Assembly (NCBI GenBank): GCA_017550625.1
Contig: JAFZOL010000004.1
Span: 1-43,418 of the forward strand
Direction: 5' to 3'
Origin: Clostridia bacterium
GTDB lineage: Bacteria; Bacillota; Clostridia; Oscillospirales; Acutalibacteraceae
DNA length: 43,418 bases
Shown: in pieces, positions 14,044 through 29,365 of the stretch
Layout: the number at the start of each line of letters is the position of its first letter
Numbering within the stretch: position 1 is the first letter of the stretch
The notes under the pieces: model-generated
Seen by the model: only the letters and a program-made list of their open reading frames with translations
What the model was told of the DNA's origin: nothing
The model's database searches: none
Translations under genes and position numbers: made by a program

Positions 14044-14120
14044 GGACCATTAGCTCAGTTGGTCAGAGCAACCGGCTCATAACCGGTCGGTCCCGGGTTC
14101 AAGTCCCTGATGGTCCACCA
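14044..14120 (+). tRNA. tRNA with anticodon CAT (Met or lysidine-modified Ile2)
   Basis: The 77-nt cloverleaf includes CCA. The acceptor pairs GGACCAT with ATGGTCC, the D arm is GCTCAGTTGGTCAGAGC, and the anticodon loop is CTCATAA in a CCGG stem. The body resembles Gram-positive tRNA-Ile2 (GGACC... acceptor) more than elongator Met, so tRNA-Ile2 read by TilS is quite possible. The T stem (CCGGG/CCCTG) contains one C-T mismatch. It is flanked by its own promoter and terminator. Confidence 0.93.
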
Positions 14121-14153
14121 AAAAAATCAGCAACCGCGGTTGCTGATTTTTTT
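14121..14153 (+). terminator. Intrinsic terminator of the CAT tRNA gene
   Basis: An AATCAGCAACC/GGTTGCTGATT stem with a short CG loop is followed by a run of T, directly after the CCA end. Confidence 0.92.
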
Positions 14154-14155
14154 AT

Positions 14156-14358
14156 CCAAGCCGCCGAAGAAGGCTTGGCATGTAATCAGCGCGAAGCGCT
14201 GTATGGTATCACGGCGAAGCCGTGCATGGCGTCAAGCGCTTACGCTTGCATGTTTCTCGGCGGCTTGATAACATGCAGCCCATTCGGGCTGATTGCATGC
14301 AATGCTTTGCATTGATTACATACCGCTCTTTGAGCGGATCGCATACGCGACTTCGTCG
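14156..14358. repeat. Dyad-symmetric array of short hairpins (array A)
   Basis: Hairpins lie at 14156-14178, 14187-14201, 14210-14224, 14233-14248, 14276-14291, 14300-14314, 14323-14337 and 14348-14358. Most have 6-bp stems; loops are GAA, CTTA, ATTC, TTT and TTC. They are joined by 10-bp linkers. The four linkers at 14178, 14201, 14224 and 14248 read GYATGNNATC or close to it. The four at 14267, 14291, 14314 and 14337 read the reverse complement. The linker start-to-end sums are constant, so the array is symmetric about 14262. An arm AAGCCGCCGA (14158-14167) also pairs with TCGGCGGCTT (14257-14266). No ORF is supported here. See array B at 19083-19282. Confidence 0.85.
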
Positions 14359-14470
14359 AAATTCTCTGCACGCCGACGGCGCGATTTGACTATTGAAAGC
14401 CGTCGGCAAATGTGATATTCTTAAAATGGAAAAACACCGTCTTTCCCGTTTTTCCGAAGGAGGCAGATCC

Positions 14471-15142
14471 ATGACCGCAAAGCTGTTTGTTCAGGCGATC
14501 GTCAAGTTCCTGCTGGGGCTCGTCATCGTCGGATTACTGGTATTCCTGCCCGCGGGCACGCTCGCGTATCCGCAGGGGTGGCTGTTCATCGGCATTCTGT
14601 TCGTGCCGATGTTTTTCGCCGGGATCGTTCTGATGTTCAAAAACCCCGAGCTTCTCAAAAAACGGCTCGACGCCAGAGAAGAAGAAAACGAGCAGAAGCT
14701 CGTGCTGCTTCTGAGCGGGCTCATGTTCATCGCGGCGTTCGTGCTGGCTGGGCTCAATTTCCGTTTCGCGTGGCTGGTTCTGCCGATGTGGGTGAGCATT
14801 GTCGCCGCCGTCGTGTTCCTCTCTGCTTACGTCCTCTATGCTGAAGTCCTGCGTGAAAACGTCTATCTCTCGCGCACGATCGAGGTGCAGGAGGACCAGA
14901 AGGTGATCGACACCGGGCTTTACGGCGTGGTGCGCCACCCGATGTATATGAGCACGCTGCTGCTGTTTCTGGCGATCCCGATCGTGTTGGGCTCGCTCAT
15001 CTCGTTCGCCGTGATGCTGTGTTACATCCCGATCATCGCGCTTCGCATCAAAAATGAGGAGAAGGTCCTTGAAGAAGGTCTGAAAGGCTATACCGAGTAT
15101 AAAAAGCGCGTCAAACACAAGGTCATCCCGTTCATCTGGTAA
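14471..15142 (+). CDS. Membrane methyltransferase of the isoprenylcysteine carboxyl methyltransferase (ICMT/PEMT-like) family
   Basis: The 223-residue membrane protein has about five hydrophobic spans and the SAM-binding signature of the ICMT/PEMT family in its C-terminal half: GVVRHPMYMS (near 155-165), then NEEKVLEEGLKGYTEYKKRV. Bacterial members methylate small molecules or lipids; the substrate cannot be told from sequence. The ATG at 14471 follows GAAGGAGG; the open frame extends upstream to 14393 without a ribosome site. It stands alone between the hairpin array and a bidirectional terminator. A TTGACT at 14386 could be a -35, but no good -10 is present at the right distance. Confidence 0.85.
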   Translation: MTAKLFVQAIVKFLLGLVIVGLLVFLPAGTLAYPQGWLFIGILFVPMFFAGIVLMFKNPELLKKRLDAREEENEQKLVLLLSGLMFIAAFVLAGLNFRFAWLVLPMWVSIVAAVVFLSAYVLYAEVLRENVYLSRTIEVQEDQKVIDTGLYGVVRHPMYMSTLLLFLAIPIVLGSLISFAVMLCYIPIIALRIKNEEKVLEEGLKGYTEYKKRVKHKVIPFIW

Positions 15143-19053: not shown

Positions 19054-19082
19054 GTATGGATCGCGGCGTTTTTTTGATAATA

Positions 19083-19282
19083 AATGATATACGCGGCTTT
19101 TGCCGCGAATGATATACGTTGCGCCGTATGATATATTGCGTCTTCGCCGCAATATGATAGGATATCCGTTCATACGCCGCAGGCGTATATCATCCTTTTG
19201 GGTATCTCGCCTTCGGCGAGGAATCCAAAAGGATATCATACCGAAGGTATATCACCCGTTCCGGTACGGAACGGATATCATT
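19083..19282. repeat. Array of short hairpins with inverted linker halves (array B)
   Basis: Hairpins lie at 19092-19107 (CGCGGC, TTTT loop), 19114-19129, 19133-19155 (8-bp stem), 19172-19188 (ATACGCC, GCA loop), 19206-19220 (CTCGCC, TTC loop), 19238-19250 (ATACC, GAA loop) and 19256-19274 (CCGTTCCG, GTA loop). Linkers ATGATATA or ATGATAG occur in the first half (19084, 19109, 19128, 19154). ATATCAT-type linkers, the reverse complement, occur in the second half (19186, 19232, 19248, 19274). Two long-range 10-bp pairings are exact: 19161-19170 with 19270-19279, and 19192-19201 with 19225-19234. No ORF is supported. The array directly abuts the tRNA-Ser terminator. Confidence 0.85.
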
Positions 19283-28034: not shown

Positions 28035-29365
28035 CTATGACTGTCGACGCTGCGATCGTCAGCAGAAAATCCGCCGCTCTTGATTTCAATACGGACGGCA
28101 TCAACGCCTCGGGCAAGATCTGGCCGAGAGAGGTCGTCCATTCCGAAAAGGGCATCCGCGCCGCGGGCGTGAGCAAGGACCGCCCCTTCTACGTGCTCGC
28201 GAGCTCCGCCTCGAAGGGCACGGCGGAGAGCGCCGCCGACCTGTTCAAAAACTGCGTCGAGGGCTTCGCCGAGGACGGCTCGAACTTCGCCGACATGATC
28301 GCCGAGTTCTTCCGCGCCTTCGCGAAGGTGCTCGTGGATTCGGGCTTTGATTCGTCCGACTGCGATTTCTCGATCTTCGTCGGCGTGAACGACAAGGTCT
28401 ATCTCGCCAAAATGGGCACCTCGAAGCTCTATCGCATCCGCGACGACTTCTGCGAGGTCGTCGAGCCTGTCAAGCGCGGTTTCCCCGACGGCAAGTCCGA
28501 ATACGGCGTCGCCGTGATCGACGACGTGCTCGTGGACGATACGTTCGTGCTGCTGACCGAAAAGGTCGCCGAGGCCCTCAACGAGGACCTGATGGAGGCC
28601 ATCTATAAGAACGCCGCGGGCGACATCAAAAAGGTCGTGGCGCAGTTCGCCTCGCAGGCCGTGCGCTTCGGCTGCAAGGACGCGATCTCGGCGATCGTGA
28701 TCAAGATCACCGAGGTGGGCGAGTCCGCTTCGTCCTTCGTGCCGCCCATCGTGCCCGCGTTCGGCACGGACGATCCCTATCAAAGGGAATCCGAATACGA
28801 TGCAGACGCGTATGCCGTTCCCGAACCCGTTGAAGAGGAGCCCGCCGAAGACGACGGCACCGTGCCCGTGAGCAAGGGCAAGAAGATCGCGTTCCTCGCC
28901 GTGACCACGATCCTCGTCGTTCTGCTGCTCGGCATCATCTTCTTCGTCGTGAGCAAGATCGCCGAAACGCATAAGGCGGAACCCGGCACGACCGCGCCCG
29001 CCGGCACCGAGGCCGAAGCCACCGACGAGACCACCACCGAACCCGCTTCGACCGAGGAATCGACCTCCGAAGAGGAATCCTCGTCCGAGGAAGCGTCCTC
29101 TGAAGAAGCTTCGACCGAGGAACCCACCACGGAAGAGCCCACGACCGAAAGACCTGTTGAGAGAACGACGGAAGAGCCTGCTCCCGAAACGACCGAAGAG
29201 CCCGCCCCCGAAACGACGGAAGAGCCCGCCCCCGAAACAACGGAAGAGCCCGCTCCCGAAACGACCGAAGAGCCCGTTCCCGAAACGACCGAAGAGCCCG
29301 CTCCCGAAACGACCGAAGAGCCCGCTCCCGATGAACCCGGCGGCGACGAGACCCCTGAGGAATAA
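28031..29365 (+). CDS. PP2C-like pseudo-phosphatase with membrane anchor and Thr/Glu/Pro repeat tail
   Basis: The 444-residue protein has an N-terminal domain (about 1-240) laid out like a PP2C Ser/Thr phosphatase. It lacks key metal ligands: the usual DGMGG is replaced by SSASKG near residue 57, the SDG block is TEK (LLTEKVAEAL), and the late GxxDN is GCKDA. It is probably catalytically inactive, as seen in some paralogues. A single membrane span follows at about 284-308. The tail is acidic and Thr/Ser rich, ending in seven copies of an 8-residue unit TTEEPAPE. With a cytoplasmic phosphatase-like domain, the tail would be outside, possibly glycosylated or wall-spanning. AAGGGAGGA precedes the ATG, which overlaps the folC stop by 4 bases. 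The role is unknown; sensing or scaffolding is inference. Confidence 0.75.
   Translation: MTMTVDAAIVSRKSAALDFNTDGINASGKIWPREVVHSEKGIRAAGVSKDRPFYVLASSASKGTAESAADLFKNCVEGFAEDGSNFADMIAEFFRAFAKVLVDSGFDSSDCDFSIFVGVNDKVYLAKMGTSKLYRIRDDFCEVVEPVKRGFPDGKSEYGVAVIDDVLVDDTFVLLTEKVAEALNEDLMEAIYKNAAGDIKKVVAQFASQAVRFGCKDAISAIVIKITEVGESASSFVPPIVPAFGTDDPYQRESEYDADAYAVPEPVEEEPAEDDGTVPVSKGKKIAFLAVTTILVVLLLGIIFFVVSKIAETHKAEPGTTAPAGTEAEATDETTTEPASTEESTSEEESSSEEASSEEASTEEPTTEEPTTERPVERTTEEPAPETTEEPAPETTEEPAPETTEEPAPETTEEPVPETTEEPAPETTEEPAPDEPGGDETPEE
29165..29332 (+). repeat. Seven tandem 24-bp repeats
   Basis: The unit is close to ACGACCGAAGAGCCCGCTCC plus CGAA and is repeated seven times without spacers; copies differ at a few, mostly third-base, positions. 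It codes for TTEEPAPE-type octapeptides at the end of the membrane-anchored PP2C-like protein. Such arrays change copy number easily. Confidence 0.92.

Follow-up and report, generated by a model that had tools for sequence, protein, structure and literature searches.

A probable family of small mobile hairpin arrays behind intrinsic terminators of Clostridia

A hairpin array downstream of a tRNA-Met gene in the window (the whole stretch of 43,418 nucleotides that we analysed) is in our judgement likely to be a gene-less copy of a small mobile element, one of a family inserting 3' of intrinsic terminators. Sequence comparisons suggest that this is probably a new family in which PF05635 proteins act as linker-recognising partners. 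To our knowledge, the terminator-linked hairpin arrays of gut Clostridia have not been described, and the open-access literature (PMC, as distinct from subscription journals and preprints) held no description of tRNA-terminator hairpin arrays or of a link between them and PF05635.

Results

The array in the window

The array is real and an origin by chance is excluded. It is 205 bases long and starts behind the tRNA-Met terminator. The features, with a second array of the same plan in the window, are as follows.

14044..14120, + strand: host tRNA-Met(cat) gene, upstream of the array (ARAGORN, Rfam)
14120..14153, + strand: intrinsic terminator, a perfect palindrome (A7-stem-T7); the array starts right after its T-run
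14154..14178, + strand: left end ATCC and hairpin H1 (CCAAGCC / GGCTTGG); the match to head model R1 begins at 14154
14178..14255, + strand: remaining head, with linkers at 14178, 14201 and 14224 and a degenerate one at 14248
14188-14200, 14211-14223, 14234-14247, + strand: inner head hairpins
14256..14267, + strand: centre C, reverse complement of the H1 arm at 11 of 11 positions; the rule recurs in other arrays
14267..14358, - strand: tail, with inverted linkers at 14267, 14291, 14314 and 14337
14277-14290, 14301-14313, 14324-14336 and, weak, 14347-14358, - strand: tail hairpins
14393..14421, + strand: putative promoter of the next gene, TTGAAA-17-TATTCT, by match to consensus
14471..15142, + strand: next gene, a neighbour outside the element
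19075..19280, - strand: second array, linker ATGATATA/TATATCAT, behind a tRNA-Ser terminator; H1 arm and centre complementary over 11 nt

The first-pass annotation of this DNA had described a structured array behind a tRNA terminator, with eight linkers placed symmetrically about a centre. The tRNA-Met(cat) gene and its palindromic terminator do lie directly 5', the linker positions from 14178 to 14337 hold, and start plus mirror end is 28524 in all four linker pairs, which places the centre at 14262. For the first four linkers it gave GYATGNNATC or close to it; the fourth (14248, GCATGTTTCT) retains GCATG alone. Eight hairpins can be drawn as claimed (H1, three in the head, four in the tail), the last being weak. 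The dyad centre itself is not a hairpin and pairs instead with the H1 5' arm: the 11 nt at 14257-14267 match 14157-14167 (H1 5' arm and loop) exactly as reverse complement. This pairing had been missed, as had the linker dialects, the copying between sites and the PF05635 link described below.

GYATGNNATC occurs nine times in the window, six of them inside the array; 100 shuffles gave 2.54 on average and 7 at most. Perfect hairpins (stem of at least 5, loop of 3-4) number seven in 14156-14366, two of them overlapping, whereas 2000 dinucleotide shuffles counted identically gave 0.69 on average and never more than 6. Folding of both strands, which the first-pass annotation had proposed, gave z-scores over 14155-14366 of -6.4 (RNA, + strand) and -4.7 (RNA, - strand), and of -7.6 for DNA. 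A large cruciform or RNA fold of the array is possible. The head model R1 scores the array at 77.6 bits (E 2.8e-13), the array being itself one of the 52 R1 training rows. Across its own genome R1 found a single array, that of the window, matched on both strands.

The next gene, which we take from reading by eye to be isoprenylcysteine methyltransferase-like, has matches in 4 of the 26 genomes of the genus, its own counted. Two full homologues elsewhere in the genus have neither array nor tRNA upstream, which speaks against an obligatory tie between array and gene.

A constant head and a variable inverted tail

The same linker-hairpin grammar, annotated from the window copy, occurs in many genomes. 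A strict two-linker pattern matched 9 of 98 genomes, the own genome included, although one of the nine (G093) looks like chance; the reversed control pattern matched none. In a scan of named species genomes, at least 116 stretches carried the array pattern. Among the 80 loci listed, the titles of 74 read Clostridia, Clostridiales, Oscillospiraceae, Ruminococcaceae or Bacillota, and the remaining six are chance-like; many are ruminant gut MAGs, and several come from one same MAG. That the named genomes are nearly all MAGs we count against our preferred explanation. A role as DNA uptake signal is thought unlikely, as the strict two-linker pattern occurs in the own genome only at the window array. 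We rejected a phage origin, since the dialect-A pattern (dialects are described below) is virtually absent from 2.9 million viral contigs, which gave two stretches, one of them apparently no array.

An array table drawn from 92 loci has 57 rows representing 56 arrays (L130 was read from both ends), some of them near-copies; alignment A1 has 52 rows, five having been dropped first. The plan of the head is constant. H1 is followed by three forward linkers with three inner hairpins, and the H1 5' arm recurs at the centre as its reverse complement. Exactly three forward linkers are present in 54 of the 57 rows, against 2-13 inverted units in the tail, so that head and tail differ in behaviour; linkers were, however, chosen by a threshold score, 7 or more of 8 fixed positions. 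Because array starts were found by a pattern needing both a CAA..TTG hairpin and a T-run, this pattern and the score threshold partly build in the conservation of linkers, their number of three and the T-run. The third head linker frequently deviates (GTATG[TG]CATC). The dyad symmetry of eight linkers is correct for the window copy but does not extend to the family, in which a three-unit head is followed by a variable inverted tail; equal numbers of linkers on either side of the centre belong to the window copy. In the tail of a tRNA-Asn array (L265, G019), one hairpin loop carries an unrelated insert of ~30 nt and its stem is enlarged to 12 bp.

Arrays lie directly behind terminators

R1 contains no upstream sequence. 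Run over the 80 loci, it gave 126 matches, of which 64 were tabulated (best strand per place, weakest omitted); the first 52, with at least 72 bits, form the strong set, and 50 of these have at least 40 nt upstream. A T-run stands immediately 5' of the head in 49 of the 50, most strong hits being arrays already picked by the pattern that requires a T-run. By a strict test 37 of the 50 have a perfect terminator hairpin upstream, and in 28 a tRNA of one of ten kinds lies within 130 bp. At L150, which was dropped from the 52 strong hits, the T-run is 5 nt from ATCC. Among the arrays that we read, the terminator in front belongs to a tRNA, tmRNA, 5S or protein gene; most tRNA genes of the own genome have no array. 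In 11 of 57 rows the right end shows TTGATT-17-(TATAAT-like) exactly 11 nt past the last linker.

Two observations concern the terminators themselves. A near-identical terminator stem (ATCAGCAACC..GGTTGCTGAT) precedes the arrays at the tRNA-Met gene of the window and at the tRNA-Asn genes of G009 and G024; the terminator may travel along with the array or be converted. At L203, in the own genome, the tmRNA terminator palindrome (arms of ~22 bp) reaches into the mature RNA at its 3' end, and the sequence past the T-run consequently mirrors the tmRNA 3' end.

Arrays have been copied between sites

A 206-bp array is 100% identical on two contigs of one genome (G198:C8 and G198:C17), with unrelated flanks. 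The left flanks have six T in common and nothing else, and the right flanks diverge immediately after ...GCCGTGATT (bounded by ...GTGATT). One copy lies behind a tRNA and before a gene that we take, by eye, to be mgtE-like; the other follows a different terminator and precedes a PF05635 gene. The identical array amid unrelated flanks indicates that arrays are copied between sites with sharp ends, although the identity (L305/L306) could be from gene conversion. No empty site for the duplicated array was found in the two genomes available. This genome has 17 head loci, and others have up to 10. Behind the duplicated array at L305 stand a second, degenerate terminator and a ATCCAAGCCG head with a GTATATCAT linker, which we read as nested or successive insertions at one site.

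Gene-bearing units can also be compared. L123 and L306, from different genomes and with different upstream terminators, are alike from the T-run through the array, the promoter region and the PF05635 gene, and the likeness ends 8 nt past the stop codon. L301 and L306 are alike for ~80 nt beyond it, so that the right end of gene-bearing units can be placed only tentatively. At an orthologous 5S-tRNA-Asn site, G009, G019 and G024 have an array and a PF05635 gene (with an internal stop codon in G024), and G004, G012 and G023 have neither. The empty tRNA-Asn sites carry different terminators, and hence none is a clean empty site.

Linker dialects and their association with PF05635 genes

The own genome contains at least four further linker dialects on the same plan. 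Their linkers are ATGATATA (the array at 19075-19280 of the window, behind tRNA-Ser), AATGAAG (behind tRNA-Tyr and tRNA-Pro), AATGATGT (behind tRNA-Cys and tmRNA), GTGAAATC (at tRNA-Leu) and GTGATGT, which follows a protein gene. Arrays of two dialects may adjoin: at L012 of G069, a genome of another family, a dialect-A array precedes a gene resembling 14471..15142 of the window, and a GTGATGCA-linker array lies directly behind that dialect-A array. A scan with ATGATATA alone was uninformative (119 matches, 46 in the reversed control). In regions downstream of tRNA and tmRNA genes of the own and related genomes, start and centre were complementary over at least 9 nt in 15 of 18 distinct arrays (18 of 21 rows, three array regions having been entered twice) compared with 2 of 13 array-free regions; mismatched pairings averaged 6.2 nt, and 50 of 420 reached 9 nt or more. 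In four of the 15 (L040, L206, L218, L258) the linker itself makes up the match; in the other eleven it runs into the H1 arm, with 3 to 12 nt outside the linker.

Passages of PMC4990558 describe S23p/PF05635, the family known from 23S rRNA intervening sequences, as homopentameric in structure and of unknown function. In the genus, 24 of 26 genomes have PF05635, in up to eight copies, compared with none of 14 control genomes; in the order, 71 of 147 have it. The model search of Clostridia genomes that the first-pass annotation had suggested found R1 heads in 22 of the 147 genomes of the order, and all 22 also have PF05635 (nominal P = 1.5e-8, uncorrected for relatedness). A PF05635 gene comes directly after the array in 6 of 57 rows; five of these arrays are behind tRNA-Asn (two), Gln, Lys and Cys, and the sixth is 224 bp from tRNA-Arg. 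At least 11 of 89 heads adjoin a PF05635 gene, and a dialect-A head lies at most 450 bp upstream of at least 11 among the 64 PF05635 genes listed. Most arrays, the window one included, have no adjoining PF05635 gene.

Seen from the genes, 57 of 59 PF05635 loci had enough upstream sequence for analysis. A same-strand tRNA or tmRNA lies within 750 bp upstream in 18 of the 57 (3 of 530 for control ORFs), and the 450 bp upstream contain a 7-mer repeated at least five times in 23 (13 of 400 for control regions). In 21 of the 57, the same 450 bp hold neither such a 7-mer nor at least four hairpins. At L198, L199, L200, L202, L204, L224 and others, hairpin-free direct repeats of 7-9 nt (AGTGATTAGTGATTAG, AAGTCGTAAGTCG) precede the PF05635 gene; perhaps they are a simpler form of the arrays.

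In a tree of 65 PF05635 proteins the dialect requires four changes, which is the minimum, compared with an average of 14.5 in shuffles, none of 200 being as low; 28 of the 65 rows have a clear upstream dialect and were counted, and dialect D combines linkers TGATGT and TGATGC, which were pooled after an initial round of labels. The tree has few columns, with branch support of 74 (A) and 80 (D), and B needs two changes. Dialect-D rows span host families f1, f3, f4, f17, f20 and f21. As judged from this tree, linker dialect follows the PF05635 protein across host families. Such agreement would be expected if the protein recognises the linker, but co-inheritance of a linked pair would also produce it. 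In all 12 PF05635 loci that have a promoter-like site and at least four linkers (dialects A, B, C, D and G), the -35 box of the gene lies at most 13 nt from the last linker, which suggests autoregulation. In the own genome one PF05635 gene was found, on contig C18 behind the tmRNA with a dialect-D array; it stands alongside arrays of dialects A, B, C and E. The window array is probably an orphan or relic, since the only PF05635 gene found in its genome belongs to dialect D.

Part of this evidence would also suit arrays that benefit the host as insulators or buffers between a strong RNA gene and the next promoter (a supercoil sink, or a bidirectional trap for read-through), spread by gene conversion. 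The left end at the T-run (49 of 50), the right end often at a -35 box (in 11 of 57 rows, at 11 nt past the last linker) and the same proximity in the 12 of 12 qualifying PF05635 loci are what such a role would predict. It would not predict the patchy occupation of orthologous sites, the exact copying amid unrelated flanks, the tie to PF05635 with its tracking of dialects, or the lack of an array at most tRNA genes of the own genome, and we consider it unlikely.

Covarying stems and the strand of the loops

In the aligned sequences the stems covary strongly, pairing being held by compensating changes; the first-pass remark that stem sequences vary while pairing is kept is supported in head and tail alike. 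Of 78 distinct inner head segments, 54 pair at all four stem positions, against 6.2% of 6006 mismatched combinations; for the tail the figures are 84 of 97 and 3.2% of 9312. RNAalifold finds changes on both sides in 8 of 15 pairs, in up to 26 of 52 sequences. Within the 52 heads, H1 arm and centre are complementary over 9.3 nt on average, compared with 6.9 nt across heads.

GNA/GNNA loops abound on the sense strand of the head and TNC/TNNC loops in the tail, a pattern that puts a GNA loop and GTATGTAATC on one same strand in both halves. Watson-Crick pairs make up 403 of 418 in the head and 542 of 554 in the tail, leaving 15 and 12 mismatches of all kinds. G.T and A.C mismatches stand at 9:1 in the head and 3:6 in the tail, a small test that points both ways: the dominance of Watson-Crick pairs leans towards folding at the DNA level, and the 9:1 bias in the head leans in the opposite direction.

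That bias is one reason to consider the head as a structured read-through RNA of the tRNA, with PF05635 as its RNA-binding partner in the manner of IVS or DGR and spread through RNA/cDNA by a reverse transcriptase acting in trans. The likeness of PF05635 to Avd, drawn in passages of PMC10053308, and two reverse transcriptase genes in the own genome are in keeping with it. But G.U pairs are rare (9 of 418 in the head, 3 of 554 in the tail) and the tail is unbiased (3:6). The GNA loops are sense in the head and antisense in the tail, so that one transcript cannot display both sets, and no hairpin chain was detected at the two reverse transcriptase loci. We regard this reading as improbable.

It is very doubtful that the structure is unselected and that quasi-palindrome correction, which perfects imperfect palindromes at replication, keeps improving the stems: the few mismatches (15 of 418 and 12 of 554) are as it predicts, and the fixed head count, the linkers, the H1-centre complementarity, the strand-specific GNA loops, the site preference and the copying are left unexplained.

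Comparison with known systems

The arrays lack at least one of the tested defining features of each of the following: 23S rRNA intervening sequences (IVS), diversity-generating retroelements (DGR), REP/RAYT, CRISPR and Rfam families. The 23S rRNA IVS come with a PF05635 protein and, like the arrays, are small, sporadic and structured and sit at a stable-RNA gene; passages of PMC4990558 suggest that they are selfish or mobile. An IVS is one long stem-loop inside 23S rRNA helices and is excised by RNase III; the arrays lie behind terminators, have many short hairpins and dialect linkers, and occur as array-only copies. For DGR, the likeness lies in Avd, which resembles PF05635 and is essential for retrohoming according to passages of PMC10053308. 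No reverse transcriptase, template repeat or variable repeat was noticed by eye in the 900 bp behind six arrays, and the own genome has its PF05635 gene on C18 and its reverse transcriptase genes on C62 and C20. On these two observations we rejected a DGR, which has a reverse transcriptase with template and variable repeat beside the Avd-like gene.

REP/BIME palindromes and the REPINs of RAYT share with the arrays short palindromes, inverted arrangement and a place at gene 3' flanks. The arrays differ in that the linker is conserved and the stem variable, the head is fixed, H1 pairs with the centre and the dialects are tied to PF05635. The only Y1_Tnp match of the own genome has short heptamer-like direct repeats nearby, but such hairpin arrays do not flank it, and none lies in the 3.3 kb around it. 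The array linkers are unlike the GTAG-type motif, and the association of the arrays is with PF05635. Mobilisation of REP/BIME-type palindromes by a RAYT (Y1) transposase therefore seems to us highly improbable.

A CRISPR has near-identical repeats, unrelated spacers and a single orientation; the arrays show two opposite orientations and self-complementary "spacers". A known structured RNA is not indicated either, as Rfam 15 reports only four tRNAs above gathering score in the window, which agrees, together with the silence of the open-access literature, with the first-pass view that no named element has this layout. MITEs, BOX and efar elements are likewise non-coding, structured and dispersed, and the repeat number of BOX is modular; we know of no MITE, BOX or efar architecture that matches the arrays. 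Group IIC introns insert directly behind intrinsic terminators, as the arrays do. Unlike such introns, the arrays show no Rfam ribozyme in the window, and no reverse transcriptase was noticed in the stretches read. Nothing resembling the arrays appears in the passages seen of two stem-loop surveys (PMC1590033, PMC2267715).

Discussion

Under the mobile-element reading that we prefer, insertion would occur directly downstream of an intrinsic terminator, in many cases that of a tRNA, tmRNA or 5S rRNA gene. The PF05635 protein, an Avd-like four-helix bundle that is pentameric in a solved relative, would recognise the dialect-specific linker, probably on a strand folded into GNA-loop hairpins. An array beside the PF05635 promoter would double as its operator, and array-only copies such as that of the window would have been moved in trans by a copying reaction. 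One solved relative is 2rld. PF05635 is not known to have a catalytic function.

A broader proposal is more tentative. PF05635 proteins might provide sequence-specific recognition for a new class of mobile elements: each clade would read its own linker on a folded single strand, control its own gene through the array and drive the copying of arrays into terminator T-tracts. The 23S IVS with their S23 proteins would be one specialised branch; we think this possible, and the odds somewhat against it. If true, it would give this orphan protein family a function. Protein-matched nucleic-acid partners would make the function of S23p/PF05635 directly testable, and the dialect system invites a search for a specificity code. 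The family would add a type of mobile element that lands at the terminators of stable-RNA genes, its hairpin geometry held by covariation.

Other repeats in the window

Just right of the array, at 14367-14410, an inverted repeat (GCCGACGGC / GCCGTCGGC) surrounds the -35 box of the next gene and is operator-like. Farther away, at 29140-29355, a 24-bp tandem repeat of at least seven units (ACGACCGAAGAGCCCGCC...) apparently encodes a Thr/Glu/Pro-rich stretch.
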